NCBI GenBank assembly: GCA_018711035.1
Contig: DVIU01000217.1
Location: 1 to 33,316, forward strand
Direction: 5' to 3'
Length of the DNA stretch: 33,316 nt
DNA from: Candidatus Scatousia excrementigallinarum
GTDB lineage: Bacteria; Cyanobacteriota; Vampirovibrionia; Gastranaerophilales; Gastranaerophilaceae
This document shows positions 3,643 through 21,928 of the stretch, one piece after another; within the stretch, counting starts at the first letter, position 1; every line of letters begins with the position of its first letter. Below the pieces are notes generated by a model that was not told the origin of the DNA, did no database searches, and was given only the letters and a program-made list of their open reading frames with translations. A program made the translations under genes and the position numbers.

Positions 3643-4692
3643 ATGCAAGTACAAAAAATAAGCCGATTTTTAAATAATAAAATGCTGCTAAAAACGTTAG
3701 AGAAAGTATCCGAGCACGGAAGCTCCTTTGCTGCCGGCACTTCTCTTGTAATGGCTTTAGGCGTACGGCCTCTTGCTATTCTGTCAACTCCGGATGTTGA
3801 AAAAGAAAATAAGCAATATGCTTGTGCAAATTCTATCTGTTCAGGACTTATTAAATTTGGGATGATAGAAGCTGTTGCTCTTCCTGTTGAAAATGCTGTT
3901 AAGAAAATTGATAAAAATCCTGATAAATACCTGAAACCATTAACTGTTAAGCTGCTAAAGGGGGGAGCATCCGGTTTATCTGAATCAAAAAGCTATAAAT
4001 TGGCTGCTCAAATAACTAAACTCGGAACAGGTTTAATAACTGCAATTCCAAAGTCAGTTCTGACTATTGCTTTAATTCCTGTTATTATGGACAAACTTTT
4101 TAATATCAAAAAGAATAATGAAACAGTAACTGTAGAAAATAACCCTGATAATATACAAATCATAAAAAGTAAAAAAATTCCTTTTCAAGGCAAAGGAACA
4201 GAACAGCTTGCGAAAGGTATCGGCAAAATATTTGACAACAAAACTGTACGTCAATTTGTGATAAAACATGCCGATGAAGAAAAAAATATTGCAAAACATA
4301 TGACTGCTGCTACTGATATTCTTCTGACCGCATCTGCCGCTTATCAGACAAATAACAGCCCAAATATAAAAGAAAACCGGAAAAAAGCACTTATTTATAA
4401 TAATGTATTATCAACGGCAATTACTCTTGGTTTTGGTTACGGTATAGATAAAGCTATTAAAAATAAAACAGGTAATTTTATTAAGCGGTTCGCTGAAGTC
4501 AACAGGCATGACCCTAAACTTCATAAATATATTGAAGGCATAAATATAATCAGACCTGCGTTAATATTCGCAGGTATCTATTATGGTTTACTACCGGTGT
4601 TTTCCACATATATTGCAGAGAAAATCGATAAATTTATTGAAAGAAATTCATTAAAGACTAAAGATTCTGAACTTCATCAGTCTGTTTCTTAA
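3643..4692 (+). CDS. Hypothetical protein, possibly membrane-associated
   Basis: 349 aa, no family recognised. The N-terminus MQVQKISRFLNN has the short lineage-style start also seen in the AAA+ protein of this window (MRITQIQTF). Several moderately hydrophobic helices are visible (about residues 28-48, 125-148, 255-270 and 300-325), separated by lysine-rich helical segments such as the stretch around 150-200. Gly/Ala-containing helices (GTGLITAIPKSVLTIALIP, ALIFAGIYYGLLPVF) suggest membrane insertion or hydrophobic packing. No signal peptide and no catalytic motif. The start has AGGTAAAAGAA upstream. It is divergent from pnuC. Its last 35 bases are also the last codons of tpsB on the other strand. 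Real gene likely, from length, start signal and codon pattern; function not assignable. Confidence 0.7.
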   Translation: MQVQKISRFLNNKMLLKTLEKVSEHGSSFAAGTSLVMALGVRPLAILSTPDVEKENKQYACANSICSGLIKFGMIEAVALPVENAVKKIDKNPDKYLKPLTVKLLKGGASGLSESKSYKLAAQITKLGTGLITAIPKSVLTIALIPVIMDKLFNIKKNNETVTVENNPDNIQIIKSKKIPFQGKGTEQLAKGIGKIFDNKTVRQFVIKHADEEKNIAKHMTAATDILLTASAAYQTNNSPNIKENRKKALIYNNVLSTAITLGFGYGIDKAIKNKTGNFIKRFAEVNRHDPKLHKYIEGINIIRPALIFAGIYYGLLPVFSTYIAEKIDKFIERNSLKTKDSELHQSVS

Positions 4693-6511
4693 TCTGTTGT
4701 TTCGGTTTTCTTAATTTAACAAGAGCATCATAGTCAGGAGTTAAAACTATATCAAAATGGAATCTTCCTGCCTGCTGATGCGGTTCGTGCGAGTTTCTTA
4801 TCATAGGGAAGCCCCAGTATAATCTGGCTGTAATATCCTTAGGCAAAGAGACCCTGAGCCCCATACCTATACCCAAAAGAACATCATTGGCATCATATCC
4901 CGGAGCACCCGGGCCGTCTCCTTTAAACGGAAAAACCATTGCATGGTCAACAAATGCTACCCCTTTTACATATTTACCTAAGAACGGCACTTCTTTCTTT
5001 TTATCTTTTGTTTTTATTGTTGACGGCGCAATAGGAAACAAAAGTTCGCCGCTCAGAAGATATCCGCTGCGGCCTATTAATAACCCTTCCGAGTAACCTC
5101 TTACGGAAGAAAGACCGCCGGCCTGGAACTGGTCAATATAAGGTACAACATCTTTTGGAATTGCCTGATAATTTCCTCTGAACTGACCGACAATACCATG
5201 TCCGAAATCGTGGAGTCTTACAATACCTCCTTCAAGTTTAACGTAATTTGAATTATCTCTGAATATCGGCATTGCATATGACACATACTGATTTGCATAC
5301 CATATACCGCGTTTAGTGTCATATCTGAGGTTCAAACCTGTTCTTGCGCTTGTAATTTTATCTGTATTTAAGTCATATCCGTCAAAAGATGTTGTGGCCT
5401 GTTTATAATCCACCGAACTGAAACTTGATAATTCCATATATGGCTTTCTTATAATCGGCTGGTTAAAATACAGTGAATAAACATAAGAACGGCTGCGAAT
5501 GTTAAACATTTCATACGGGCCTTTTGCAATATGCGCATAACTTGAGGAGAATGAGAACCCTACTCTGCCGTCTTTTTTGTTTACCGGAATGTTATAATCG
5601 GCAAACGGCGTATTTGAGTGTGCACTGAAATACGCACCCAGTGTTAATTTGTCTCTATAACCGAAAAGGCTGTCATGAGTTAGGGCGACACCTCCGCGGA
5701 ATTTACCTATCGTTGAACGTCCGGCATTATCGAAAATCAAACTTGTATGGAACGGGAGTTTTTCTTTTGCAGTAAGTTCAATATCTGTAGTTCCCATTCT
5801 TTTCTCACCCGGTTTCAGATTTGCGTTTAAGTCAATACCGTCAGTGTATTTATTAAAATTTAATACATTTTGTTCAAGTTCAACTATATCAAATAGTTTA
5901 TAAGGTTTTGCAGAGATTCGTTTTTTTATGTAAGATTCTTTTGTCCAGCGGTTACCGGTAACAGTAACATCTCCTACTTTACCTTCAAGTAAATCAATAT
6001 AAATAGTACCTTCGTCAATTGTTTGTTCCGGAACAAATGCTCTTGCTGTTACAAATCCTTTTTCCATATAAAGGTTATTTATTTTAGCAACAATTTCTTT
6101 AATTTGTTCAAAGCTTAAATTTTCTCCAAGATAAGGGGTAATGATGTTTTCAATCTCGTCTTCCGTCAAAATTTCACTGGGAGCGACTCTTATTTTATCA
6201 ATATATACGCCTTTAGTCGCATATTCTTCTGCTCTTGCTTTAATAACATTTTTTTTTTGCTTTTTTTCTATTTTATCAACTTGCTGCTCTTTTTTTTGTT
6301 CTTCTTTCTGACGTTTTTTTAATTCTTTCCAATCTTCTTCCTGTTCTTTTCGTCTTTCCAAATCTCTTATTCTGTCCATATCATGAACATTGAGGTTTCC
6401 GGCACTTCCCGCAGCATCCATAACTCCGGCAGGAATTTCACCGATTGCCTGAGCTGCATTACTAATACAGGATAGACATATAGCAAGTAATAAAATCTTT
6501 TTCAAATCCAT
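4658..6511 (-). CDS. TpsB-type outer-membrane transporter (ShlB/FhaC/HecB family)
   Basis: 617-aa secretion partner for the giant adhesin encoded divergently. Residues 1-22 are a signal peptide (cleavage after AQA). A highly charged Lys/Glu helical segment (about 46-98) precedes two POTRA domains (about 101-176 and 178-253), which bind the TPS domain of the substrate in the periplasm. From about 254 a 16-strand Omp85-type barrel follows, with the loop-6 signature VRGY at 470-473. The last barrel strand (GRFHFDIVLTPDY) is followed by a polar Lys/Gln-rich tail of roughly 25 residues, unusual because these porins normally end at the aromatic last residue. AAGGTGA lies before the ATG. An A10 run in the coding sequence (6249-6258) falls near codons 85-88. 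It is not in the usual tpsB-tpsA operon but head-to-head with tpsA. Confidence 0.92.
   Translation of the reverse strand: MDLKKILLLAICLSCISNAAQAIGEIPAGVMDAAGSAGNLNVHDMDRIRDLERRKEQEEDWKELKKRQKEEQKKEQQVDKIEKKQKKNVIKARAEEYATKGVYIDKIRVAPSEILTEDEIENIITPYLGENLSFEQIKEIVAKINNLYMEKGFVTARAFVPEQTIDEGTIYIDLLEGKVGDVTVTGNRWTKESYIKKRISAKPYKLFDIVELEQNVLNFNKYTDGIDLNANLKPGEKRMGTTDIELTAKEKLPFHTSLIFDNAGRSTIGKFRGGVALTHDSLFGYRDKLTLGAYFSAHSNTPFADYNIPVNKKDGRVGFSFSSSYAHIAKGPYEMFNIRSRSYVYSLYFNQPIIRKPYMELSSFSSVDYKQATTSFDGYDLNTDKITSARTGLNLRYDTKRGIWYANQYVSYAMPIFRDNSNYVKLEGGIVRLHDFGHGIVGQFRGNYQAIPKDVVPYIDQFQAGGLSSVRGYSEGLLIGRSGYLLSGELLFPIAPSTIKTKDKKKEVPFLGKYVKGVAFVDHAMVFPFKGDGPGAPGYDANDVLLGIGMGLRVSLPKDITARLYWGFPMIRNSHEPHQQAGRFHFDIVLTPDYDALVKLRKPKQQIKKQTDEVQNL
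6249..6258 (-). repeat. A10 homopolymer inside the tpsB coding sequence
   Basis: Ten consecutive A residues on the coding strand, in the Lys-rich segment before the first POTRA domain; a second run of seven A residues lies close by (6261-6267). Slippage of one base would truncate TpsB before its POTRA domains. Confidence 0.85.
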
Positions 6512-6588: not shown

Positions 6589-6617
6589 TTGAAACATAAC
6601 TTTAGCAATTATAGAAA
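6589..6617 (+). promoter_or_regulatory. Candidate promoter of tpsA
   Basis: TTGAAA (6589-6594) and TAGAAA (6612-6617) are 17 bases apart, giving a leader of about 65 bases before the ATG at 6688. An alternative -10, TATATT, is at 6577-6582 but lacks a -35. The 176-base gap between tpsB and tpsA must hold promoters for both directions. Confidence 0.35.
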
Positions 6618-6687
6618 ATTTTTCATATTTAATCTCATCATGAAGCAAATAACCAGTATAGTGATGATTTTAAGAAAAGGGATATAT

Positions 6688-9600
6688 ATGAAAAAGGTTA
6701 GAACGTTTAAAACTATTGTTACAAAAGCTTTTGCGTTATTTTTATGTTTGAGCTTTATATTTCAGCAATCACTGATAGTACCGGTACTTGCAAGTGAGAT
6801 TACGCCGGATAATTCAGCCGGCATGGGAGCTAATATTAATAATCCTGTAGACGGTGTTTATGATATTACTGCAGGGTTTACTCATGGCTCAACTGATTTT
6901 GGTCATTTTGATCAATTTAATCTTACTCCCGGAGATGTGGCTAACCTTATAAATTCTGTTGGTATAAATAAATTTGTTGCTTTAGTAAATAATCAGGTTA
7001 ATATTAACGGTCTTTTAAATATCCTTAACAGCGGCGGTGTTTTTAATAACGGGCATGCCGTATTTGTATCCCCTAGCGGTATCGTAATAGGTGCCTCAGG
7101 AGTCCTTAACGTCGGAGCGCTTTCATTAATTACTCCTTCGCAGGGTACTTATAATAATTTTGTTGGCGGTTTGAAAGCAAATCCTACAGAAGATTTAACC
7201 GCATTGAAAACTGATTCGCAGGGAAATATAACCATAAACGGTAAAATTATTGCCCGCGGTGATGTCGAAATGTACGGTAAAGACATTACAATCGCAGGCG
7301 ATGGTAATTCGTCCGCAGGTATTCTTGCCGGTTTAGGAGATAAATTAAAAAATCAGGTTTTGACAGCAGATAATGCTGAACAAATTTTTAACGGACTTGT
7401 CTCTAATGCGATTCAAGACCCGACAGGTTTTGGCTTTGAAAACGGAAAGGTTGTTATAAAAGCTCAGGCTGTAAATAATCATGCTCCTGATTCGAATGTT
7501 ACATCTGCCGGTGTAAATATTAAAAATGCGGCTATTGTCGGTAAAGATATTGATATTTCCGTAACAGCTTCCGATACTATAGAAACAACGGCGGACGAGG
7601 CAGGTTCTGTTAAAGATATTGTATTAAATATTGATAAATATTTTGACATGGAAAATCCTTATGAAGATTTTACAGGTGCAAGAGCCGAAGCTGTGATTAA
7701 TATTGAAAATTCAAAACTTGCAGCAGTAGACAATATTAATATCTCAACAAATGCTTCCGCAACTACTAACATTTCTTCAGCTGATAAACCTTCCAGCGCG
7801 CTGGTATTAGCATTAGGAAATTCCACAAAATCAACAATTGATATTAAAAATACAAAAATTAATGCAGGCGGTGACCTCAATGCCAATGCTGTATCGGAAA
7901 ATATTTCTGAAATTGAAATCTCGAACGAAGCAGAAGATTCCGATGATATGAAGTCAAAAGCTTTAATTGCGGTTAACCATACCTCAAAAGCCGATACTCA
8001 TGTTGTTATTGATAATCAATCAACAATAAAAGCTGATAATCTTAATGTGAAAGCTGTAAATGCTACCAATAATAATATTTCTGTTACAAACACAGTTAAA
8101 TATGAAGGAGATTCAAAAGACGGAAAGAAAGCCGGCAACAATGCCGCTAGTTCTGCCGGAGTTTCCTTGCTTTTAAAAAATGACAGAATTACAACAAATG
8201 CTGAAGTCAATGCGAATACCGAACTTAAAGGCGAGGCTAAAGTTACTGCACAAAATTTACACGTAAGCAATACTGCAATTTCTTCCTCGGGGGTTGTTGC
8301 AGAAGAAGATGACAAGGAGTCCGAAAAATCTGATACTGATACCTCTGGTATTTTTTCTAAAATTCAGGATATTTTGGCTTCATTCTCGCAGGCCGGAGTT
8401 GATTCCTCTAATCCGACTTCAGGGTCTTCCGCTTCAGGGTCGGGAACTCCTGCTGCGGAAATGAGCGGTGTTGTTAATATTAATAAAAGTGAAGTTACAA
8501 CAACAGCCTCAATAGGAAGCACTGATTTTAATGCAGGCGGGGATGTATCTGTTGAAGCTAATACTATTGATTACACAACTAATATTGCTTCTGCCGCTTC
8601 CTCTGACGGTGCAAAGTTTGCACCTGGTGCAGCTGTGATTGTAAATTCACAAAATAATACTACAAAGGCAGTGATTAAAGATAATTCTAAAGTTAGTGCA
8701 AAATCTGTTAAGCTGAATGCGACTACAGAATTGCCTTTGACTCTTGCTGAGCTGAAGTTGAATATTTTAGACAAAAGTTTTTCATTAAACCCGCAGTCTA
8801 ACGGAAACTGGGATTTCTCAGGTTTTGAAGGCAGCGGCGATGACTACGCCGGTATAGATTTAAGCGACCTTGATTTTGGCTTTATCGGTGAAGACGGAAG
8901 TCCTGTAGAATTTTCAACACAGTTTTTTAATAATCAGGCTACTTCTGCTGCAAACGGTGTTACTACTGGAATTGCCGGTGCCGTCGTTTACAATTCCATC
9001 GTAAACGACACAACTGCGTCGATTGGAAACAACGCAGTTGTTACTGCTTCTCAAGGTGATATAATTGCCAATGCCGTAAATTCTGTTGTCAATTATAACG
9101 CAGCAGGCGATGTCTCCGCATTATTTAAACAGGATGATAAAGCAAACGGAGGTAAGTTCGGACTTGGCGGGTCTGTTCTTATTAATAATTATACAAATAA
9201 CGCAACGGCTTCAATTGGGAAAAATGCAACCGTAACGGCCGGGAATGGAAAAGTTGAATTAACTTCCGCGAACGAGGCTTCTTATATGAATCTTGTTTCT
9301 TCCGGTGCCCAAGCCGGTAAATTTGCTCTTGCCGGGTCGGTTCTTGTGAATAATATTAATGGAAATACAGAATCAAAAATCGGGGAACAAGCAAGAGTAA
9401 AAGCTGCCGTAGTGAACGTAAAAGCAGGAGAAGGGCAAATTAAAACTGCTGCAAATACAGACGGTTTGAAAGATGATTCTCTTGACTTGAATCAGGAACG
9501 TTCGGCAAAAGACAAAACGTCCGTAATAAATATCGGCGGAGCAATCTCACAGCAAAAAGCCCGGAAAGGACAATCTTCTGGTAAAGCTTCTTCCGGAGGT

Positions 9601-12600
9601 AATAACAGTTCAGGTGCTGCAATAGGTGCTACTGTTATGGTGAATAATATTAACAAAAATGTAAAAGCTTCTATTGGTAACAATGCAGAAATAACCGCAA
9701 CAAAAAGTGTTGATATAAAGGCAAATACAGAAACCGGAACATTAAATATAGGTTTGGCAGGTGCTTTTACCGGCGGTGTTAAAACCAAAAAGCCAGCCTC
9801 AAAAGATTCATCATCACAAGGGCAGGATTTCGGAAATTTTGGCAACTGGCAGGATAGTGTCGGTAATATTACAGATAGAGTAGAAAATGCGGTTTCCTCT
9901 ACTGATAATACCGTTAATAATGCTACAGGAAGTTCTGTAACAGACCATTTGCAGGGTAGTGATGTTCAGGGCGCTCTGGGTTCTACAAATAATACCCCTA
10001 ATGATGTTACACCGGGTACTTCCGGTACAACTTCACAAGGGCAAAATCTTGCAGGTCATAGTGGAAACCTTATGCAAAATGAAGATGGCTCCAATGCTGT
10101 TGCAAACGGCTCAACTGCAACAAACAGCTTTTCGACAGCGGCAGCCGGAGTAGTCAATGTAAATTCCAATGAAACTAATGTAGAAGCATCTATTGGAAAT
10201 GCAACCATAAATGTCGGAGATTCACTAAATGTCGAGGCTTCACAGGATACTCAAGGCCTGGATATTGCAACAGGTGTATCAAAAGCAGGAAATTTAGGCG
10301 CAGGTGCTGCTATAAATGTTAATTCAAAAGCAGGTTCAACAAATGCCTTAATGAATGGTACGAATGTTATATTTACCGGTTCCGGTGACAGACTCAGTGT
10401 AATTGCAGATGAAACGAATAACAATATTGCCGTGGCACTTGGAGTAGGTGCAGCAAAAGGCGGTAATAATACCCAGATTGCAATCGGGGGTTCTTTTAAT
10501 ACGAATTTAATTGAAAATTCAGTCAAATCTTCAATGAATGATGTTGACGTTGAAGGCAAAGGTAATACAGAAATAGAAGTTATTGCAAATAACTATTCTA
10601 AATCCTATAAAGGTGCCGGCGGTGTAGCTTATGCCGGCGGTAAAAGCAACAGTTCAGGCGGAGGCGCTACCGGAGGTGGCGTTTCAGGTAGCGGAACTTC
10701 AGATGGTGGCAGCACCGGTGTAGGGGCTGGTGTAGCCGGTAATATTGATGTTTATAATAAAACTACAAAGGCTGAAATAACAAGTTCAGAAGGGAATAAA
10801 TCAAAACTTACAAATGTCGGCAATGTCTCTGTTGAAGCTAACAATAAAGGCGGTGCTACAGACGATGTTATCGGTTTTTCTATGGGTGGTGCCATATCCG
10901 GTGCAAATACTTCTGCGAATTTTGCAGGTGCAATTGGTGTTGGTGTATTTGGAAATGAAGTTAGTGCTTTGATTAAAAACGCTGATATTTCTTCAATCGG
11001 AGATATTAATGTAAATGCGGATTCAAACCTTAATCTTGCAAATATTACAGGGAGTGCATCAATTTCCAAAGCTTCAAAAGGTGCCGGAGTTGGCATCGGT
11101 ACTGTTGTAAATGTTATTAATAACATTGTTATTGCCGGAATTGAAGATACAATAATTTCAAAATCAAAATCAGTTAATGTCAATGCAAAAGAAACAGAAG
11201 TTTTACAATTCCTTGCGGCTAATCTTGGGTTTAATGCCGGTGTAGACGCAAAACATGTCGGGGTTTACCCAAATGCGATAGTAAGCGTTCTGGATAGTGA
11301 TATAAAATCTTATATCACCGGTGGTTCTGTGACTTCTGATGGTAATGTCGCCAGTAAAGCCGCTTATGATTCTGATATTAAAGGTATAACGGCAGTTCTT
11401 GCAAGCGATGGATTTGTTGTTGGTGGTAATATTGTAAGCAATGTTCTGACAAATTCAACAACTTCAAATGTAAATTCGACTGTTTCGGCAGGTGGTCAGT
11501 TGAGTTCTGTTGCGGAAGCTGACGAAAATATAGATGTTATAGCCGCAGGTGCTGCTATTTCATCCGGCAAACTTGCGGTGGCAGCAAATATCGGTGTAAA
11601 TGTTCTTGATAATACAACTGACGCTAAACTTGGCGGAAATGTTACGAAATCCGGAAGTGTAAATGTAAATGCTTCAGATACAACCAATTTAAAAACCAGA
11701 GGAGGTACTCTTTCGGGTTCGGCTGGAACAGGTGTGGGAGGTTCAATTATTGTTGATGTCCTCGTAAAAGATGTTTCAGCTTCGATTTCGGATGGAGCAA
11801 ATATTAATTCTGACGGAAATGTGAATGTAAATGCTTCTGCAAAAAATTATTCCGGCGGGGACTCTAAACTTTCGATAAATTTAGCGGATATTTTAAATAA
11901 TATAGATAATATTGATTTAGAAAATTATGAAGAATTAAAAGACTGGCAGATGACCTATGACCTTGTAGGAGGAGGCAGTACAGCTCTCAGCGGTTCATTG
12001 ATTACGAAAGTTGTCAATAACAACGTAACTGCTTCTGTTGGTAATGCTGTTGTCAACTCGGGGTCTTTAAATGTTGCAGCTTCTGAAGATGTAGTCATTA
12101 ATGCAATTGTGGGTAATATTTCCGGCGGTGCAGGTAAAACTATCGGTGGTTCTGCTTTTGTTAATGTTGTAACAGGAACTACAGAGGCTAAAATCGCCAA
12201 AGGAGCTAATGTTACAACTACATCAAAAGGCGTAAGTGTTATAGCTGATAATAAGCAGTCAATCCGAACAATAATGGTTATGGGCGGTGGCGGACAGATT
12301 GCCGTTAACGGTTCTGCAAATGTAAATGTATTTAATAACAATACGCTTGCGACTGTTGAAGACGGTGTAACAATCGATTCAAAAGGTGCCGTAAAGGTTG
12401 ATGCTGCTGAAAAAACTGAAGTAGAAAGCATTAACATAGCTGCTTCAGCCGGTAGCAATATTGCAGCAGGAGGAGTTATTTATGTAAACACTTTCTCAAG
12501 CGATGTTAAGGCAACAGTCGGTAAAAAAGAAGGTGAACAAACTTCTATTACAGCCGGCGGAGATATTGATGTTAATGCTGATTCAAAATCTGCATTCGGA

Positions 12601-15600
12601 GCTACAATGATGATGGCAGGTTTAGGCGGTACTGCCGGGGTTTCCGGAGCTGCGGTTGTAAATGTTGTTGATGCAGTGGTTTCTTCTTATGTCGTAAATT
12701 CGTTGTTAAGTAATGCCGGTCACGATATAAATGTTCTTGCTAACAGCAATTTTAATAACTGGAAATATTCAAACAACAGCTTGTATGACACTATGAGCAA
12801 AACAGAATCATACCTGACAGGCAAAATTGATGAAATTGATATGGATAATTTCACTCCGATTGTAAATATCTTATCCTTATCAGGCGCAGGAACGGCTGCT
12901 GTAGGTGCTGTTGCGGTTGCAAACACAGTTACAAATAATGTTTCTGCTGTTGTAGAAAATTCTAATATTACAAATACAAACAGTTTGAATGTCTCGGCAA
13001 CAACAGCTTCACAAACATACGACGCGCTGGCAAGTCTTGCAGGTTCCGGTGTTGCGTCTGTAACAGGCAGTGCTCTTGTAAACTTAATTGAAGGAGAGAC
13101 AAAAGCTGCTGTTATAGGAACTACAGTTGAACGCGGTTCCGTTTATGTAAATGCAGCAGACAATGCCTATATGGATGGTATTCTGCTGGGAGTTGCAGGA
13201 GCAGGAACCGCTGCTGTGACAGCTTCTGTGAATACAAACCTTACAGAAAATAAGGTTAATGCCGTAATTGATGAATCAACTATACGTGATGCTGATAAAG
13301 TTAGCGTTAAGTCTGAATCAAACAAAAAAGCCTCAACTCTGGCAAGTGGTATTGCTGTTTCAGGTGGAGCCGGTGTAAACGGTCTTGTTATTGTTAATCA
13401 GAACGAAACCGAAAATAATGCAAAGATAACTAATTCAACAATAAAAACTAAAAATGATGTTAAAGTTGAAGGCAAGAGTTCTTTTAAAACATTTGACGCC
13501 TTAGCTTCAGCAGGAGTGTCGACTGTAGCCGTAAACGCCGCTGCAATTTCAAACATTGCGGCAAATAAAAATACAGCTTCAATTGAAAATACTAATATTT
13601 CAGAATCAGGTTCGGTAACTGTTAATGCTGAAAGTACAAATGACATAAAAGGTAATAATATTTCGCTCGGTGTAGGTGGAGGTGCGATTGGGCTTTCTGC
13701 TCTTGTAAACCTAGTTGAGTCTGAAACAAAAGCCTTTATAAATAATTCAGACCCTTCTAAAATAATCAAGACCGCTGCTCTTAATGTAAAGGCAAATGAT
13801 TCAATTAACCTTGATATGAATGTCGGGGTATTAACAGCCGGAGGCGTAAGTGCTGCCGGTGCCGCAAATGTTAATATTATAAATAATGCTGTACTGGCAG
13901 AAATAAAATCTCAATCCGAAATATCAGCCTCATCGGTTAATGTTAATGCAGTATCTGATATGGATATAAATATATTAACTGCATCTGCCGCAGTCGGAGC
14001 ATTCGGCGGTGCTGCATCTGTTGCAGTTACCTCAATCGGCGGAAAATTTGACGATAGTAACACAGATGCATATCTTAAAACAGATGATGGCGGAAATCTT
14101 GTAGATAAAGCAATTTCACAGACAGGTGTTAAAGTTTCCGAAAATTCAAAAGGCGGAACTGTAGCCAATGTTAATGCAAATATAAAATCAGACGGCGATG
14201 TTAATGTAAAAGCCTCTAATAATTTAAATTTAGATAAAACAAATGCACAGGCTGTTGCCGGATTTGGCTCTCTCGCCGGAAATGTGCTTGTTACAAATAT
14301 GAAATATAATACGTCAGCCTCTATGCAGGGTGATGTTACCGGGAAAAATATTTCAGTAAACGCAAATAATACTGTTAAGGCAAATACTACGGCTTATTCA
14401 GCCTCATTATCAGGTGTAAATTTTGGAGGTAACGTAGCTTACTTTACTAATGATGCAACAACCTCTGCTGCAATTAATGGTGGTACAATTAAAGGTACAA
14501 ATGTGGCTGTTAATGCAACATCAAAGGATACTACATCTGTTAATTCAACAGGCGCCAGCGTTTCAGGAGCCAATATCAACGCAACAGTTGCATTGACTGA
14601 ATCAAACAATAAAGTTAGTGCTGCTATTAATAACAAAGTAAATATTAATGCGGATAAACTGGATGTTATTGCAGATAATACCAGTTCGCTTACATCTGAA
14701 CTTGCGTCGTTGAGTGCTTCTGTAATAAGCGGTCAGGTTGTAATTAATAAAGCTGAATCTAGTGCTATTACAAGTGCTATCGTTGACGCAACCGGCACAA
14801 TAAATGCCGCTGATATGAATGTTATAACCTCAACCGGCGGTATAAGTGCAAAATCTATTGTAAACATGGGTGGTGTGTCTTTAGCCGGTGTTGATGTTAC
14901 ATCTCAGGGTGCTATAGTCAAAGCCCAATTTGATTCTGCAATTAAAGGTGACGCAGAGATAGTAAATAAAAATAGTGATAAAACCGGCAGTACCAATGTT
15001 TATGCCGGTGTAAAAACCGGTACGACAGAAGCCGGTGAAATTAAAGCAGAAGCGTCTGCCAAACAGGTAAAGGCAGGATTAGCAGGTGTTGGTGTCACAA
15101 GCCTTAATGCTAACGTAAGTGCTGCAACTGATGTAACAATTAATCCTGCTAATTTGAAAACCGATAACTTAAATGTATTTTCAAAATTAAACAGGACTGC
15201 TAATGTTGGGTCAGAATCCGGAAGCCTTAGTGCTATAGAATTGAGTACTCTTGATATGGACGCCTATGCCGGTGGTTCAAACACAATTACTATCGCTGGT
15301 AATACGGAAGTTGAAAAGGCTATTAACGTTCAACTCGGCGATAAAGCAAACGTTAATACTTCAATTATGAACCAGAGCATAAGCCTTGTTGGAGCCAATG
15401 TGAATACTGCTGATGCTGTAATTGATACGGATACGACAATTAATATTGGTGGAAATCTTTCTATGGATAATATGACCGTAAATTCTAATGTGGAAAGAAA
15501 CACGGTTAATTCCTCAGAATCGTCTGGTGGTGGGTTTGTAGATGTTAATTCTTATAAAATGACAACAAATTCCGGCGGGGATTCAACAATAAATATTACG

Positions 15601-18600
15601 GCAAATATTCAGGGCGATTCTAAAAACGCAGTGGATGTAACTTCAACTGCCAAAAATACTGCCAATACACGGATTTCAAGTAAATCGGCCGGTCTTGCAG
15701 CTATTGCAAAAAATGAAACAAAAAATACAATTACTGCAACAAATAAAATTAATGTAAACGGTGCAAACATAAAAACTAACGGTGGCGATATTTCAATTAA
15801 GGCAGACAGTGAAAACCGTGTATTAATGCGTCAGAATGAACAAGGTGCCGGTGCAATTGTTATTCGCGGAGGTAAAATCAACAATTCTATTAATTCTATT
15901 GCCGATGTTGAATTTAATAATGCAAATATAGAAGCTGAAAATGTTAATGTTTCTGCTTCTGCAAAATTGGGTACAATCGGCGATAAAGAAATATCATACA
16001 GAGTTGGTGTATCAGGTTTTTCCGCTACACATGATGCTGATATCTCAAACGATATTACTCAAAATTCAAATATCAAGTTTAATAATTCTACAGTCAAGGC
16101 TAAACAAAATATGAATGTAAAGGCCAGAACTGAAAGTACATTAAAACAAAAAATCTATACCGAAGGTGACGGTTTTGTAACGAAAAACGTTGCAACCTCC
16201 AATCTTAAGGTGACTAACAATAATAATATTACAATTAGCAAAGGGTCAACTTTAGAAGCGAATGACTTGAATCTTGCTATGGATTCAAAAAATATTTTAC
16301 ATTCGGAATCCGTCACAAATGCTGATCACTTTGGAGGTTTAGACCCTGAAGCTCATGCAAATCTGGAATTAACTATTAACAATACAATTAATAACAGCGG
16401 TGAACTCAAAGGTAAAGACACTGTTCAGATTAATTTTATGAAGGATGATTCTGTAAATGAATTGACACAGCTTGCCGAATTAACTGTTGATGCGGCTGTC
16501 GCAACCGGCGATGCCGATGGTTATCTGAAATATAATGTTAATAATAACCTCAATGTAAATGAAGGTGCAAGCATATCATCAGGAAAAGATGTTGCTATAC
16601 GTTACAGCGACGGTGATTATAAACTTAATTCAAGAGTTCATTCTAAAAAGACAAGTTATCTGCTTTTTGGTATTCCTATTACTGTGGAGGATGATTATTC
16701 TAATGTTTCAAGAGGCGGAACAAGTAAACTTACCCTTAACGGTGAAATTACAGCAGGAAGCGAGTCTAAATATAACTTTGAAATTGATAGAGACGGTAAT
16801 GTCGTTGAACACAGCGGCTTTGAAGATAAATATGAAAAAGTTGACAGTGATAAAGTCATTTCTGCTGAACAACAGGAAAAAGATAATGAGAAAGTAATTT
16901 CAGAAGTTAAAGATGAAATTGAAAATATTAATAACGAAATTGCAGAAATGAAAAAGAATCAGGAAGCAAACTCAAAAGAAATTGCAGAATATGAGCAAAA
17001 GCTTGAGCAATACCAGACTCTTCTTGACAGTTTAAATGCAAATAAAGATAACACAATAACAATGGATAACATTGAAAATCAAATCAAAGATAAAGTAAAT
17101 GAAAAAATAGAAGATGCAGATAACTTCTGGTCAAATTATAATAAATATGCAAATGAGCATAAAGGTGAAGGCGGTGACTTATTTGATAAATATGTAGATA
17201 CTCTTTCGATTGAAAATAAAGCAGAAGTAAAATCTGCATATCATTCAGTGGCTGACAATATTACAACAGATGCGGAATCAGGATTAGCTATATTTAAACA
17301 GGGTGATTTAATAAGCATAATCTCTGATAAAGATTCCGTGCAGGAATCAATTGACAGACTTGAGCAGGTGGTAAATAATTATACCCAGCAATTAAATAAC
17401 CTTAAAATAAAAGGTGAAGGGCTAATATCTTCAATACAAAGCAATTCAGAAAGTCTTTCTGCTATGAATGACCAGCTTAAATACCTTGAAGATTTAAGAG
17501 GTTCTTTTACTGATACAAGTGTCGGTAAACCTTATTTCAAATTTGATAATTTAGATATTCCTAATGCAAAAATTGAAATTAGCGGCATTGATATGAAGGT
17601 TGTAAAAGATTCCAACGGCAATGAATCATTAGCTCCGAATATCGAAGGTAATGGCAATTTCCATATTTTTGCTCCTACTGTAGAGGTAACGAATTATTCG
17701 GATTATGATTTGGTATTCGGGAATATAAACTATAATACTTCAGGTAATTCAGGGCTCATCATAAATGATGTAACCTATAATCACCTTGCAAATAAAGATA
17801 CTCCTGTTGCAGATAATGTTCATCTGCTTTCAGGCGACACAACCGGTGATTTTAATCCAGGCATATCGATTAAAAATCTTTATGACCATAATAATCCGGT
17901 AGCCGGAGGGTCGATTGTTTCAAATATAATAATGAACGGACTTATAAACTTTAATAACGGATATTTGTCAATCTGGAATGAAAGCGGTGATATAACCATA
18001 AAAAGTTTAATCAATACCGCATCAAAAGATATTATTGCCACACAGGGTAATGCCGTTTACACCGGCGGAGGCAGCTTTGAAATTAAAGAAAATGACAGAT
18101 TTGTTGCAGGTAAAGATGTAACCGTAAATGCATCAAATATTAAAGTTGACGGCCTTGTGCAGGCAGGTTACGGAGATAGAAATATTGTAATAACAGAAGA
18201 TATGATTAAACCTGAAAACCTTGTTGTTGACCCGAATACCGGCGAGAAGAACATGGTTGATACCGCATATCTTGACAATTCGAACGGTAATATAAAAGTC
18301 CTGTATGTTGACGGCAAGCTTCTTGTGTTCAATACACAGCAGGAAGGCGGCAACGTTAACTTTACCGGTTCTGTGTCAGGCAGCGGCACTGTTAAATATA
18401 CAGACGGTTTTGCAAATGTAAATATACAGAACAAAACAGATAAAGAACTTGTAGTTAACAATCTTGCAAATGACCGTATGAACGGACAATTTACTAACAG
18501 AGGTTCTCTGAAATCTGATAATATTATTAATCAGGGTCATTCCGAAGCCCTTACAAATATTGACTCAAACGGTAAAATCAGTATTTTAGGTTTCTTAAAA

Positions 18601-21450
18601 CACGGACATAATAGACAAAATACTGACGGTGCCGGTCAGCTTACAATTAAATCAGATAACGGAATCGCAGTAAATGAAAAAAGAGGTTCTAATGGGGAAT
18701 TGCTTGCTACAGTTGATTCTGTTGGTAATACAGTAATCGAAAACGGTAATAATTCCGGCATAACAATTGATGGTAAAGTCCTCAATGACGGTGCAATTAA
18801 CGTTAAAAATAACGGTTCGGAAGGCGTTTCCGTTAATAGTATAATTGAAAACTCAAACGGTACCTTAAAAGTAGATAATACGCAAGGAAATGTAACAATT
18901 TCAGAAAAAGGAACTTTACAAAATTCTAACGGAAATATCGAAATTAAAAATACCGGAGAGGGCAAGGTTTCAATTATCGGTAAAATTAAAAACCTGTTAA
19001 AAGGCGATACAAAAATCGATTCGCAGGGTGAACAGGGAATTGAAATCTCTGGTACTGTAACCAATACTGACGGTATTGTTGAAATTTCAAATAAAAAAGC
19101 CGGAGTAACAATTTCCGGACTAGTAGAAAATAAAAAAGGTAAAACTACCGTTAAAAATGAAGGTTCTGACGGTATAAAAGTTACCTCTGCCGGTAAAATC
19201 CAAAATAATAACGGACAACTTGAGCTTGAAAATACAGGTAAGGGCGGTATGAAGCTTGAAGGTAAAGTTAAAACAAGTACCGGTGATATTAAACTTACCA
19301 ATAAAGATTCTGATATTGTAATCGGGCATAAAGATACAGATTTCAATATAGAATCCGGCAGTAATGTTGTTATTAACCAGACAAACGGAGATGTTCTAAA
19401 TGCCGGTGTTGATAAAACTTTAATCTCAGCAGCTTCTGACTTGATTATGACTGTTAACGGCGGCAGTGTCGGTAAGCGTGCACAAACAGACAAGCCTGCT
19501 TACAGTATAGATGCAAGTACAAGAGACTATACAAAATCTCTTAATGTTAATATTAAAGGAAAAGTTAATATTGAAGCAAACGCAAAAGACGGTGTAAAAG
19601 ATTCCGGCTTGGTAAATCTTACAGCTAAAAAATCAGATTTGAATGTTGATAAGATTAAAACCGACGGGGACATTGTCCTTACTGCTGCGGATTGGAAATA
19701 TCAGGATGAAGAAAATCCTGATCCGAATAATGACCCTTATTACAGAGGCTACTCAATTAGAAATGCTTCGACAGATAAATCACAGGCAAATCTTGAAGGT
19801 AAAAATATCTCGGTAATCTCAAGTAACGAAATCGGCGAAAAAGGCAACGCTTTGACATATAATCAAAGAACAGACCTCGACGCGAATGCAAAAGTCGGAT
19901 TTGAGGCTGAAAATGATATTTACCTTGACGGTTCGGCAAAAGGTGATAAGACAAATATCGCTTATCTGGTATCAAAACGCGGTTCAATTGACTTTGCGCT
20001 CGGGTCGGATGCTGAAATTCATGAAATAACTTCAAATAATCATTTACATATTCAAAGCAGAGCCAAAAATCTTACAATATATAACCTTGGCAAACTGACC
20101 AGCCTTGGCGAAGATTTTAATGACCTTCTCTATCCGCACGATAAAATCAAGCTTGGTGGAAATTCTATGGACGTAGTTCCACAGACTGTTGCAATAGAAG
20201 TTCTTGATGCAAACGGTGGAGCCGAGGCAAATTCAACTCTGAAAATCTATAATGCCTATGTCCGTGGTGCAAATAACGGTAAGGGAAGTTATGAACAATA
20301 CCTTGACCAGACATTCCAAACTGCCGATGTATCGTTGATGGCTGATAATATTTACGCTCACGCTTACGATGCGGCAAAATCGGATGTGTACACAAATAAC
20401 AGACCTGGTGGATTTGACCCTACTTTAGATACTGTATATACAGACCTGAATGGTAACGAAGCGCATGCTACAGGCTTTAATACAGTAGGTGAAGGTGCGA
20501 AGTTGTCTTTTGACCTTCAGGGCGTATCTAGAGAAATGGTTAAAAGCGCAACAGGAGATGATTCCACACGAAGCTATAACGAAACTGATAAATTCCAAAC
20601 AATTGAATTTTTCAATAATAAATACCAGATTCCGGACGGTAAGGCTTACAAAGCTCATGAAGTTACATTGTCTGTAAATTCAAGTGACGAATCTGAAGAA
20701 ACCGGCAATAACCGCGGATTAAATATAAACAAAATCTATGCTGATAATGCTTATGTTGATACAAAAGACTTAAATCTTTCTGTAAGAGACGGCCTTATCA
20801 CAAACTATGCGGAATTCAGAAACGGTAACAGATTTGGAGAAGGTAATTATCCTGGAGATTACAGATGGCTCACTGTTGTTGATAATGATTTCAGAAGACT
20901 CGTTGATTCAACACTTCAACTTTATACCGAAAAAACCGGTTCTTTTGGACTTGATATGGGCAACCTTGTTATTCTGAGATCTAAAGCTCCTGCTGTTAAT
21001 TATAATCCTTATGAAGTTGCAAACTTATTTAGAAATGAAAACAGTTTCTACAGATTGACTTATAAGGATGACAAAATTCAGTACAACACAACAACTCCTG
21101 ACTTTAAAGATATTGATAAGGCAACTTATAAGGCCACAAAACGTGTGTCTATGCGCTTCCCTACAAAGGATCAAAATCTTCAATCAAATGTCGCGGTATA
21201 TGATATTTCTAAAACCGGTGCTTTGATAGATAACCCTAATAACCTCAAAATAGGGGATAAAAAACATGTAAAACTTTTATATGAAGATATGGATATTGAT
21301 GTGGATGTAGAAGTTGTACGTATTACAGACAATGGTTTTGCAGGTGTTAAATTCATAAACATGAATAAATCCACCGCAAATAAAATTCTTTATCTGAATT
21401 TATCAAGAGCAAATTCAATGAAGGAAAATTACACAAGTCAGTTACCATAA
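6688..21450 (+). CDS. TpsA: giant LktA-like filamentous adhesin with C-terminal PilZ domain
   Basis: 4,920 aa from the ATG at 6688, chosen because AAAAGGG lies 7 bases upstream and MKKVRTFKT opens a typical signal peptide (1-35, cleavage after VLA); an in-frame TTG at 6589 lacks these. Domain order: TPS secretion domain (about 36-290) with VFVSPSGIVIG (SPSGI at 128-132, in place of the NPNGI of FHA); thirty or more degenerate beta-strand repeats (about 590-2760); further beta-rich passenger; an alpha-helical coiled-coil insert (about 3390-3610); eight or nine beta-helix units of 22-25 residues (about 4016-4210); a beta-rich region; and a PilZ domain (about 4812-4910). By eye the only Cys is in the signal peptide, as expected of an exported protein. 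TpsB is encoded divergently. Substrate or host receptor unknown. No toxin or immunity gene follows, so it is an adhesin rather than a CdiA. Confidence 0.92.
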   Translation: MKKVRTFKTIVTKAFALFLCLSFIFQQSLIVPVLASEITPDNSAGMGANINNPVDGVYDITAGFTHGSTDFGHFDQFNLTPGDVANLINSVGINKFVALVNNQVNINGLLNILNSGGVFNNGHAVFVSPSGIVIGASGVLNVGALSLITPSQGTYNNFVGGLKANPTEDLTALKTDSQGNITINGKIIARGDVEMYGKDITIAGDGNSSAGILAGLGDKLKNQVLTADNAEQIFNGLVSNAIQDPTGFGFENGKVVIKAQAVNNHAPDSNVTSAGVNIKNAAIVGKDIDISVTASDTIETTADEAGSVKDIVLNIDKYFDMENPYEDFTGARAEAVINIENSKLAAVDNINISTNASATTNISSADKPSSALVLALGNSTKSTIDIKNTKINAGGDLNANAVSENISEIEISNEAEDSDDMKSKALIAVNHTSKADTHVVIDNQSTIKADNLNVKAVNATNNNISVTNTVKYEGDSKDGKKAGNNAASSAGVSLLLKNDRITTNAEVNANTELKGEAKVTAQNLHVSNTAISSSGVVAEEDDKESEKSDTDTSGIFSKIQDILASFSQAGVDSSNPTSGSSASGSGTPAAEMSGVVNINKSEVTTTASIGSTDFNAGGDVSVEANTIDYTTNIASAASSDGAKFAPGAAVIVNSQNNTTKAVIKDNSKVSAKSVKLNATTELPLTLAELKLNILDKSFSLNPQSNGNWDFSGFEGSGDDYAGIDLSDLDFGFIGEDGSPVEFSTQFFNNQATSAANGVTTGIAGAVVYNSIVNDTTASIGNNAVVTASQGDIIANAVNSVVNYNAAGDVSALFKQDDKANGGKFGLGGSVLINNYTNNATASIGKNATVTAGNGKVELTSANEASYMNLVSSGAQAGKFALAGSVLVNNINGNTESKIGEQARVKAAVVNVKAGEGQIKTAANTDGLKDDSLDLNQERSAKDKTSVINIGGAISQQKARKGQSSGKASSGGNNSSGAAIGATVMVNNINKNVKASIGNNAEITATKSVDIKANTETGTLNIGLAGAFTGGVKTKKPASKDSSSQGQDFGNFGNWQDSVGNITDRVENAVSSTDNTVNNATGSSVTDHLQGSDVQGALGSTNNTPNDVTPGTSGTTSQGQNLAGHSGNLMQNEDGSNAVANGSTATNSFSTAAAGVVNVNSNETNVEASIGNATINVGDSLNVEASQDTQGLDIATGVSKAGNLGAGAAINVNSKAGSTNALMNGTNVIFTGSGDRLSVIADETNNNIAVALGVGAAKGGNNTQIAIGGSFNTNLIENSVKSSMNDVDVEGKGNTEIEVIANNYSKSYKGAGGVAYAGGKSNSSGGGATGGGVSGSGTSDGGSTGVGAGVAGNIDVYNKTTKAEITSSEGNKSKLTNVGNVSVEANNKGGATDDVIGFSMGGAISGANTSANFAGAIGVGVFGNEVSALIKNADISSIGDINVNADSNLNLANITGSASISKASKGAGVGIGTVVNVINNIVIAGIEDTIISKSKSVNVNAKETEVLQFLAANLGFNAGVDAKHVGVYPNAIVSVLDSDIKSYITGGSVTSDGNVASKAAYDSDIKGITAVLASDGFVVGGNIVSNVLTNSTTSNVNSTVSAGGQLSSVAEADENIDVIAAGAAISSGKLAVAANIGVNVLDNTTDAKLGGNVTKSGSVNVNASDTTNLKTRGGTLSGSAGTGVGGSIIVDVLVKDVSASISDGANINSDGNVNVNASAKNYSGGDSKLSINLADILNNIDNIDLENYEELKDWQMTYDLVGGGSTALSGSLITKVVNNNVTASVGNAVVNSGSLNVAASEDVVINAIVGNISGGAGKTIGGSAFVNVVTGTTEAKIAKGANVTTTSKGVSVIADNKQSIRTIMVMGGGGQIAVNGSANVNVFNNNTLATVEDGVTIDSKGAVKVDAAEKTEVESINIAASAGSNIAAGGVIYVNTFSSDVKATVGKKEGEQTSITAGGDIDVNADSKSAFGATMMMAGLGGTAGVSGAAVVNVVDAVVSSYVVNSLLSNAGHDINVLANSNFNNWKYSNNSLYDTMSKTESYLTGKIDEIDMDNFTPIVNILSLSGAGTAAVGAVAVANTVTNNVSAVVENSNITNTNSLNVSATTASQTYDALASLAGSGVASVTGSALVNLIEGETKAAVIGTTVERGSVYVNAADNAYMDGILLGVAGAGTAAVTASVNTNLTENKVNAVIDESTIRDADKVSVKSESNKKASTLASGIAVSGGAGVNGLVIVNQNETENNAKITNSTIKTKNDVKVEGKSSFKTFDALASAGVSTVAVNAAAISNIAANKNTASIENTNISESGSVTVNAESTNDIKGNNISLGVGGGAIGLSALVNLVESETKAFINNSDPSKIIKTAALNVKANDSINLDMNVGVLTAGGVSAAGAANVNIINNAVLAEIKSQSEISASSVNVNAVSDMDINILTASAAVGAFGGAASVAVTSIGGKFDDSNTDAYLKTDDGGNLVDKAISQTGVKVSENSKGGTVANVNANIKSDGDVNVKASNNLNLDKTNAQAVAGFGSLAGNVLVTNMKYNTSASMQGDVTGKNISVNANNTVKANTTAYSASLSGVNFGGNVAYFTNDATTSAAINGGTIKGTNVAVNATSKDTTSVNSTGASVSGANINATVALTESNNKVSAAINNKVNINADKLDVIADNTSSLTSELASLSASVISGQVVINKAESSAITSAIVDATGTINAADMNVITSTGGISAKSIVNMGGVSLAGVDVTSQGAIVKAQFDSAIKGDAEIVNKNSDKTGSTNVYAGVKTGTTEAGEIKAEASAKQVKAGLAGVGVTSLNANVSAATDVTINPANLKTDNLNVFSKLNRTANVGSESGSLSAIELSTLDMDAYAGGSNTITIAGNTEVEKAINVQLGDKANVNTSIMNQSISLVGANVNTADAVIDTDTTINIGGNLSMDNMTVNSNVERNTVNSSESSGGGFVDVNSYKMTTNSGGDSTINITANIQGDSKNAVDVTSTAKNTANTRISSKSAGLAAIAKNETKNTITATNKINVNGANIKTNGGDISIKADSENRVLMRQNEQGAGAIVIRGGKINNSINSIADVEFNNANIEAENVNVSASAKLGTIGDKEISYRVGVSGFSATHDADISNDITQNSNIKFNNSTVKAKQNMNVKARTESTLKQKIYTEGDGFVTKNVATSNLKVTNNNNITISKGSTLEANDLNLAMDSKNILHSESVTNADHFGGLDPEAHANLELTINNTINNSGELKGKDTVQINFMKDDSVNELTQLAELTVDAAVATGDADGYLKYNVNNNLNVNEGASISSGKDVAIRYSDGDYKLNSRVHSKKTSYLLFGIPITVEDDYSNVSRGGTSKLTLNGEITAGSESKYNFEIDRDGNVVEHSGFEDKYEKVDSDKVISAEQQEKDNEKVISEVKDEIENINNEIAEMKKNQEANSKEIAEYEQKLEQYQTLLDSLNANKDNTITMDNIENQIKDKVNEKIEDADNFWSNYNKYANEHKGEGGDLFDKYVDTLSIENKAEVKSAYHSVADNITTDAESGLAIFKQGDLISIISDKDSVQESIDRLEQVVNNYTQQLNNLKIKGEGLISSIQSNSESLSAMNDQLKYLEDLRGSFTDTSVGKPYFKFDNLDIPNAKIEISGIDMKVVKDSNGNESLAPNIEGNGNFHIFAPTVEVTNYSDYDLVFGNINYNTSGNSGLIINDVTYNHLANKDTPVADNVHLLSGDTTGDFNPGISIKNLYDHNNPVAGGSIVSNIIMNGLINFNNGYLSIWNESGDITIKSLINTASKDIIATQGNAVYTGGGSFEIKENDRFVAGKDVTVNASNIKVDGLVQAGYGDRNIVITEDMIKPENLVVDPNTGEKNMVDTAYLDNSNGNIKVLYVDGKLLVFNTQQEGGNVNFTGSVSGSGTVKYTDGFANVNIQNKTDKELVVNNLANDRMNGQFTNRGSLKSDNIINQGHSEALTNIDSNGKISILGFLKHGHNRQNTDGAGQLTIKSDNGIAVNEKRGSNGELLATVDSVGNTVIENGNNSGITIDGKVLNDGAINVKNNGSEGVSVNSIIENSNGTLKVDNTQGNVTISEKGTLQNSNGNIEIKNTGEGKVSIIGKIKNLLKGDTKIDSQGEQGIEISGTVTNTDGIVEISNKKAGVTISGLVENKKGKTTVKNEGSDGIKVTSAGKIQNNNGQLELENTGKGGMKLEGKVKTSTGDIKLTNKDSDIVIGHKDTDFNIESGSNVVINQTNGDVLNAGVDKTLISAASDLIMTVNGGSVGKRAQTDKPAYSIDASTRDYTKSLNVNIKGKVNIEANAKDGVKDSGLVNLTAKKSDLNVDKIKTDGDIVLTAADWKYQDEENPDPNNDPYYRGYSIRNASTDKSQANLEGKNISVISSNEIGEKGNALTYNQRTDLDANAKVGFEAENDIYLDGSAKGDKTNIAYLVSKRGSIDFALGSDAEIHEITSNNHLHIQSRAKNLTIYNLGKLTSLGEDFNDLLYPHDKIKLGGNSMDVVPQTVAIEVLDANGGAEANSTLKIYNAYVRGANNGKGSYEQYLDQTFQTADVSLMADNIYAHAYDAAKSDVYTNNRPGGFDPTLDTVYTDLNGNEAHATGFNTVGEGAKLSFDLQGVSREMVKSATGDDSTRSYNETDKFQTIEFFNNKYQIPDGKAYKAHEVTLSVNSSDESEETGNNRGLNINKIYADNAYVDTKDLNLSVRDGLITNYAEFRNGNRFGEGNYPGDYRWLTVVDNDFRRLVDSTLQLYTEKTGSFGLDMGNLVILRSKAPAVNYNPYEVANLFRNENSFYRLTYKDDKIQYNTTTPDFKDIDKATYKATKRVSMRFPTKDQNLQSNVAVYDISKTGALIDNPNNLKIGDKKHVKLLYEDMDIDVDVEVVRITDNGFAGVKFINMNKSTANKILYLNLSRANSMKENYTSQLP
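6793..7557 (+). other. TPS (two-partner secretion) domain of TpsA
   Basis: Directly after signal-peptide cleavage. It contains N-I-N-G-L-L-N-I-L-N-S-G-G, then HAVFVSPSGIVIGASGVLNVG, the family hallmark of a beta-helix that docks on the POTRA domains of TpsB and starts outward transport. Boundaries are approximate. Confidence 0.85.
8455..14960 (+). repeat. Degenerate protein repeats in the TpsA passenger (about 30 or more)
   Basis: Each unit of about 55-75 residues follows the pattern G-G-s-x-x-V-N-x-x-x-N-x-T-x-A-x-I-G-x-x-A-x-V-x-A-x-x-x-V-x-V-x-A. Clear examples lie at about 8455, 9160, 9330, 9610, 11560, 12140, 12300 and 13060. At DNA level the copies have diverged strongly, so this is an old protein repeat, not a recent tandem duplication. 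Two Ser/Gly-rich linkers interrupt it (about 8335-8460 and 10640-10735). This architecture is typical of LktA-type filamentous adhesins. Confidence 0.8.
16860..17510 (+). other. Coiled-coil insert in the TpsA beta-passenger
   Basis: Around residues 3390-3610 the Gly/Asn/Ser/Val-rich beta pattern stops and gives way to heptad-like helices rich in Glu, Lys, Gln and Leu (for example EIAEYEQKLEQYQTLLDSL and DRLEQVVNNYTQQLNNLKI). Beta-rich sequence resumes right after LKYLEDLRGSF. Confidence 0.75.
18733..19315 (+). repeat. Eight to nine short beta-helix repeats (22-25 aa each) in TpsA
   Basis: Units follow I/V-x-N-x-G-x-x-G-I-x-I-x-G-x-V-x-N-x-x-G-x-I-x, one per likely beta-helix turn; examples are ITIDGKVLNDGAINVKN and IEISGTVTNTDGIVEISN. 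They are shorter and more regular than the upstream repeats and end just before the non-repetitive C-terminal region. Confidence 0.75.
21118..21420 (+). other. PilZ (c-di-GMP-binding) domain at the C-terminus of TpsA
   Basis: RVSMR (R4819 and R4823, the RxxxR motif) is followed 16 residues later by DISKTG (D4839, S4841, G4844, the DxSxxG motif). Then comes the expected barrel pattern L-x-I-G-D...V-K-L-L-Y-E...V-D-V-E-V-V-R-I...G-F-A-G-V-K-F and a C-terminal helix. Both ligand-binding motifs are intact. No Shine-Dalgarno with an in-frame start precedes it, so it is a covalent part of the adhesin. Confidence 0.85.
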
Positions 21451-21484: not shown

Positions 21485-21485
21485 A

Positions 21486-21494
21486 TGGTAAAAT
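21486..21494 (+). promoter_or_regulatory. Extended -10 promoter of the MerR-family gene
   Basis: TGGTAAAAT directly abuts the T-run of the tpsA terminator, 20 bases before the ATG at 21515. The same layout (TGnTAAAAT, then a GGAGGG ribosome site) precedes cutA. Confidence 0.5.
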
Positions 21495-21514
21495 GTTTTC
21501 AAGGAGGGTACATA

Positions 21515-21928
21515 ATGTACACGATTAAAGAAGTTGCAGATAAAATGGATGTTTCCGAGCATACTCTTCGTTTTTGGGCAAAGAGCGGATTTTTTCCTTT
21601 TATAAAAAGGAATGAAAATAATGTGCGTTTATTTTCGGAAAATGATTTGGACTGGGTTAAAATTGTTAAGTGTTTGAGAATGGTTGGAACTGAAAATAAG
21701 GCTATTAAACGATATATTGACCTGTGTCTTATAGGTGATTCAACAATTCCTGAACGTTTTGGAATTATTCAGGCGACAAAGATTAAGGCTCAGCAGCAGA
21801 TGGATGATTTGCAAAGACAAATGGATTTGTTGGAATATAAAGAAAACTATTATAAAAATCTTATAAAAAATAACCTCAATGACGAGTGGAATCCGATGAA
21901 TAAAGTTGAGCATGAAAGTATTGCATAA
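21515..21928 (+). CDS. MerR-family transcriptional regulator (AdhR/NmlR-like)
   Basis: 137 aa from the ATG at 21515, chosen for its strong AAGGAGGG ribosome site; an in-frame ATG at 21485 has none. The N-terminal winged helix-turn-helix reads MYTIKEVADKMDVSEHTLRFW (DNA-binding, residues 1-70), with the MerR wing and the helix containing ENDLDWVKIVKCLR. A long C-terminal dimerisation coiled coil (about 85-122, MDDLQRQMDLLEYKENYYKNL) follows. There is no long effector domain and no metal-binding Cys cluster; C50 in VKCLR and C72 in IDLCL are the visible cysteines. This fits the AdhR/NmlR subgroup that responds to aldehydes and other electrophiles. The two palindromic 19-bp-spacer promoters at 23749-23779 and 26604-26634 are its best candidate targets. 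Confidence 0.9.
   Translation: MYTIKEVADKMDVSEHTLRFWAKSGFFPFIKRNENNVRLFSENDLDWVKIVKCLRMVGTENKAIKRYIDLCLIGDSTIPERFGIIQATKIKAQQQMDDLQRQMDLLEYKENYYKNLIKNNLNDEWNPMNKVEHESIA

Follow-up and report, generated by a model that had tools for sequence, protein, structure and literature searches.

The window, 33,316 nucleotides of Candidatus Scatousia excrementigallinarum (contig DVIU01000217.1, forward strand), encodes on its plus strand a giant adhesin that ends in a PilZ domain, a domain which is normally intracellular and binds the messenger cyclic di-GMP (c-di-GMP). An initial annotation made from the letters alone had read the gene as an exported protein of 4,920 residues with a C-terminal PilZ domain, and had proposed a profile search, structure prediction and a search of related genomes as checks. 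The open reading frame (ORF) extends from 6589 to 21450 (4,953 residues) and its probable start, the ATG at 6688 behind AAAAGGG, gives the length of 4,920 residues first proposed. The features of the adhesin and its transporter were as follows:

6688–21450, plus strand: giant LktA-family or two-partner secretion (TPS)-type exoprotein (adhesin) of about 4,920 residues, from the ORF, the ATG with its ribosome-binding site, NF012204 and the LktA_tand_53 repeats.

6688–6795, plus strand: signal peptide MKKVRTFKTIVTKAFALFLCLSFIFQQSLIVPVLAS, from the sequence; a hydrophobic segment stands ahead of the secretion domain in 70/70 complete relatives.

6859–7299, plus strand: N-terminal secretion domain (adhes_FxxPxG, TPS-like), NCBIfam NF012204, 7.4e-36.

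21007–21153, plus strand: disordered linker from the last beta-rich region to the PilZ domain, model residues 190–238, predicted local distance difference test (pLDDT) <50.

21118–21450, plus strand: PilZ domain with RVSMR and DISKTG, beta-barrel and C-terminal helix, Pfam 2.6e-9; the top Foldseek matches are PilZ structures.

4658–6511, minus strand: TpsB transporter (POTRA_2 and ShlB barrel), divergent from the adhesin gene, Pfam ShlB 3.4e-22 and POTRA_2 7.5e-21.

When the C-terminal 316 residues (window 20500–21447) were scanned alone, the Pfam PilZ profile PF07238 matched with E=2.6e-9 and 37.8 bits, above the cut-off of 22.5. The Pfam core covers approximately 21160–21387 and a family-specific hidden Markov model (HMM) covers 21115–21438, in agreement with the 21118–21450 first assigned. 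The c-di-GMP signature is complete, with RVSMR (RxxxR) and DISKTG ([DN]xSxxG) in frame with the giant ORF, as the initial annotation had stated. PilZ was not reported when the entire 4,953-residue ORF was scanned with Pfam; C-terminal domains were therefore scanned by themselves, apart from whole proteins, and for the same reason the annotation of such giants in databases and pipelines may omit the domain. AlphaFold (on 15 relatives) returned a PilZ barrel and a long helix at the C-terminus, both at a pLDDT of about 80, within a 336-residue model of mean pLDDT only 63. Searched against the PDB with Foldseek, it matched 4q63, 4xrn and 4rt0 with template modelling (TM) scores (target) of 0.58–0.68, of which 4xrn and 4rt0 are complexes of PilZ with c-di-GMP. 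The C-terminus of the 4,920-residue adhesin is confirmed to be a canonical PilZ domain. An assembly fusion or a chance match was rejected, as this C-terminus has conserved counterparts in more than 30 further genomes of the order and among numerous smaller adhesins. A transmembrane anchor close to the C-terminus was also rejected: hydrophobic segments are absent near PilZ, and the 12 that were flagged are well inside the repeats of the giants.

At the other end of the protein, NF012204 (LktA-family adhesin, NCBIfam) matched residues 58–204 with 123 bits against a cut-off of 60, and 25 copies of the 53-residue LktA_tand_53 repeat were counted in the adhesin. The N-terminal domain and the repeats are shared with the LktA-family filamentous adhesins (NF012204/NF012206), to which a C-terminal PilZ is added here. 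The Pfam TPS domain had no match in the adhesin, so that the signal peptide and TPS domain first proposed hold as a signal peptide and an NF012204 secretion domain, and not as a Pfam TPS match. The protein has the marks of the TpsA/LktA family (signal peptide, N-terminal secretion domain and a linked TpsB), and is predicted from these to be secreted through TpsB.

Matches to the C-terminal region were found in 154 of 286 Gastranaerophilales genomes, and the C-terminus of the window adhesin itself recurs at 37–75% identity in more than 30 other genomes, mostly in frames of about 5–6 thousand residues. The adhesin-PilZ proteins fall into giants (4.7–6.4 thousand residues) and smaller members (approximately 1.0–3.2 thousand residues). 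From Gastranaerophilaceae, 74 complete and non-redundant PilZ frames longer than 400 residues were compiled, and the proposed search for secretion domain and PilZ in one protein was positive for 70 of them, each with the secretion domain behind a hydrophobic (signal-like) segment; the remaining four appear to be truncated by stops or by assembly. PilZ is C-terminal in all 74, with a median of 6 residues beyond the domain. Three such ends are encoded by the genome of the window. Across 386 genomes of the phylum this adhesin type is restricted to Gastranaerophilaceae, with only four weak matches elsewhere; G334, the one examined among these, proved to be a generic PilZ, short and lacking the adhesin. 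In the sampled gut lineage, which is common but little studied, about half of the genomes carry adhesin-PilZ proteins.

Ten complete TPS proteins from the same lineage have no PilZ, and PilZ is therefore not required for secretion as such. PilZ-less proteins were seen at L120, L121, L122, L123, L125, L126, L127 and L135, at L120 and L121 in tandem with others, and are possibly freely secreted forms. In the smaller members, PilZ is preceded by simple repeats, among them (DT)n, (DA)n and PGPGPG; long linkers of (DT)n, (DA)n, (EP)n or (PTG)n, likely of variable length, precede it in L042, L045, L046, L121, L161 and L186. One of these linkers matches SD-repeat stalks of staphylococcal MSCRAMM adhesins, though with scores beneath their cut-offs, and the order of simple-repeat linker and PilZ recalls, by analogy, a stalk followed by an anchor. 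Many exported LktA/TPS-type adhesins of Gastranaerophilaceae, of approximately 1.0–6.4 thousand residues, are shown to end in PilZ, in most cases after a stalk that is disordered or made of simple repeats.

The columns of the c-di-GMP signature are among the most conserved of 101 aligned domains (R 96/98, R 97/100, D/N 99/101, S 101/101, G 101/101). Full RxxxR and (D/N)xSxxG were retained in 69 of the 74 complete proteins, so that degenerate motifs, which the initial annotation had named as a sign against its proposal, are not the rule among homologues. GGDEF proteins occur in all 286 genomes, typically about seven in each. From the conserved motif and the presence of GGDEF proteins throughout, c-di-GMP binding by the adhesin PilZ is a reasonable prediction. 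Some PilZ domains bind no ligand and serve as protein-interaction modules (PMC10333796), and the adhesin PilZ might likewise be an exported folding, docking or dimerisation module that keeps its motif for another anion or a protein partner, with no role for c-di-GMP. RxxxR is lost in 5 of the 74, all giants or pieces of giants and some also without the Asp/Asn, and these still keep the barrel and the terminal position, as such a module would. The exact signature including D/N is nevertheless retained in the other 69, and RxxxR contacts the ligand instead of the barrel core. A module of this kind is judged distinctly unlikely. The five ends without RxxxR (L109, L110, L113, L133 and L138) are natural ligand-less controls.

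The LapG protease (PF06035) was found in 0 of 59 relative genomes, with a positive Caulobacter control, and no EAL protein was found in the genome of the window, which does have GGDEF proteins; LapD is absent from that genome since it has no EAL protein. There, c-di-GMP is probably broken down by another enzyme type such as HD-GYP. Wiring through LapD/LapG was rejected on these grounds, in line with the difference from LapA/LapD/LapG that had been proposed at the outset. As in LapA/LapD/LapG, a giant adhesin would be retained in a manner linked to c-di-GMP. LapA, secreted by a type I system, is anchored through its N-terminus until a protease frees it, whereas here the N-terminal domain is TPS-like and PilZ is C-terminal. 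CdrA/CdrB of Pseudomonas aeruginosa, together with LapD/LapG, resembles the present case as a TPS adhesin with a C-terminal retention element and release inhibited by c-di-GMP: the C-terminal hook of CdrA stalls the adhesin in the pore, and LapG removes the hook once c-di-GMP falls (PMC8472254). It differs in that the candidate receptor here lies inside the adhesin; LapG was not found in the 59 relatives, the window's genome has no EAL protein, and the C-terminus of the window adhesin lacks a CdrA-type cysteine-pair hook.

Two groups of observations bear on the compartment in which PilZ sits. The first concerns cysteine, which is missing from the C-terminal 316 residues of the window adhesin. 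The adhesin PilZ domains together have 9 cysteines in 15,745 residues and the rest of the adhesins 0.14%, against 1.7% in the window neighbours and 0.8% in GGDEF proteins, the like-for-like comparison being with a single cytosolic PilZ (L001). Such scarcity resembles exported sequence and would indirectly favour export of the domain. The second concerns 12 small proteins (L160–L166, L169–L171, L173 and L174) in which nothing but a Sec-type signal peptide and a spacer precedes PilZ, the signal peptides being judged by eye, by cleavage-like sites and by a crude hydrophobicity score. Nine of the 12 genes, in one genus, are directly downstream of adhesin-PilZ genes, as open frames for 166–247 residues that start less than about 200 nt past the adhesin stop; L169–L171 are a second, more divergent type of 221–226 residues located elsewhere. 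Both motifs are intact in all 12, at a mean pairwise identity of 40% (minimum 28%), and Pfam PilZ matched all seven that were tested (6e-11 to 1e-5); by these profile matches the PilZ fold of the small proteins is settled. Related signal-peptide PilZ proteins (L223 and L224), likewise with intact c-di-GMP motifs, occur in another family of the order. This lineage thus seems to move PilZ domains through the inner membrane deliberately.

The initial annotation had suggested that the C-terminus may stay in the cytoplasm, where PilZ folded around c-di-GMP would block Sec and leave the fibre spanning both membranes until c-di-GMP falls. Strongly conserved motifs would suit this arrangement, as would a PilZ that is the last domain out behind a flexible linker, and tightly folded domains are able to block Sec translocation. 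It would also solve the problem of the ligand source, the messenger being cytosolic and its synthases present in 286/286 genomes. It leaves the signal-peptide PilZ proteins with intact motifs unexplained, however, would occupy one Sec channel per adhesin, and sits poorly with a PilZ as depleted of cysteine as exported sequence. The TPS adhesins studied so far, moreover, keep their C-terminus in the periplasm or outer membrane (PMC8263021, PMC8472254). A cytoplasmic stall, which these findings do not support, has become less likely than when it was proposed and is now judged unlikely, though still a serious rival.

Known TPS adhesins are held by their C-terminal end; LapG appears to be lacking from Gastranaerophilaceae (0 of 59 genomes) and EAL proteins from the window's genome. 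The simplest reading is that PilZ is the C-terminal stopper of Gastranaerophilaceae adhesins. The adhesin would leave by way of Sec and next pass TpsB with its N-terminus leading; PilZ would pass Sec unfolded, as the last part to cross the inner membrane, and its folding on the periplasmic side, at the TpsB mouth, would provide a stopper or anchor, so that the fibre would remain tethered by its own C-terminus. Once bound to a cyclic dinucleotide (c-di-GMP or an anion like it), the folded stopper would become more stable or would pair with a second PilZ, for example a small exported PilZ protein. On loss of the ligand the C-terminal end would unfold and slip out. We consider a role of PilZ as tether of the fibre, taken overall, to be fairly probable; that the tether is periplasmic and set by a ligand, the reading favoured here, is put forward more tentatively.

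Several points weigh against the periplasmic stopper. Neither the signal-peptide PilZ proteins nor the low cysteine amounts to proof of PilZ export, and shared ancestry weakens cysteine depletion as a sign of it. The small exported proteins were not found in the window's genome and are confined to one genus and one other family; the hydrophobicity cut-off of 2.2 used for their signal peptides also let through 26% of unrelated frames, and, as L170 starts with TTG, its score was taken from a Met further downstream. The motif-less ends imply that the ligand is dispensable in some giants. As c-di-GMP is normally cytosolic and not periplasmic (PMC8472254), the motif would be conserved outside the cytoplasm with no obvious source of ligand.

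That source could lie in other cells, if the entire protein reached the surface or the medium and its PilZ bound c-di-GMP from lysed or neighbouring cells as a sensor, sponge or matrix glue. The existence of small exported PilZ proteins, the conserved motif and the low cysteine would all be consistent with this, but there is no evidence of extracellular c-di-GMP in the gut niche and no publication on a secreted PilZ was found; we regard a surface PilZ as improbable and as the least favoured of the explanations weighed here. It is possible, and held with some reserve, that the exported adhesins work together with the small secreted PilZ proteins as an extracytoplasmic receptor system for cyclic dinucleotides, which would set tethering or read the messenger of other cells.

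Other retained TPS proteins offer partial parallels to the proposed periplasmic stopper. FhaB/FhaC of Bordetella shares export from N- to C-terminus with a C-terminal part, the prodomain, that stays in the periplasm (PMC8263021); the FhaB prodomain is of about 1,200 residues and protease-controlled, whereas the PilZ is of about 105 residues. ExlA of ExlA/ExlB is likewise a TPS protein kept in its pore at high c-di-GMP, through an unknown relay (PMC8472254), but it is a toxin and not a fibre, and no PilZ has been described in it. The cytoplasmic PilZ receptors YcgR, Alg44 and BcsA have the fold and motif in common with the present domains; their PilZ faces the cytoplasm, whereas here it is fused to exported proteins or stands behind signal peptides.

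No precedent for a secreted, periplasmic or extracytoplasmic PilZ, or for an adhesin-PilZ fusion, was found in the literature searched, which did not include most subscription journals. While each part (LktA/TPS adhesin, PilZ) is known, what appears to be new is their fusion, the distribution of that fusion across a bacterial family and the stand-alone exported PilZ. To our knowledge, c-di-GMP controls secreted adhesins only via relays (transcription, or LapD/LapG). Either the messenger directly sets the tethering of the fibre, or PilZ works outside the cytoplasm: the first, if true, would place the receptor within the adhesin itself, the shortest possible wiring, and the second, if true, would overturn the view that receptors of c-di-GMP are exposed to the cytosol alone.

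Downstream of the adhesin, a MerR-type regulator gene (21485–21928) on the same strand begins 35 bases past the adhesin stop, and could be co-transcribed with it.

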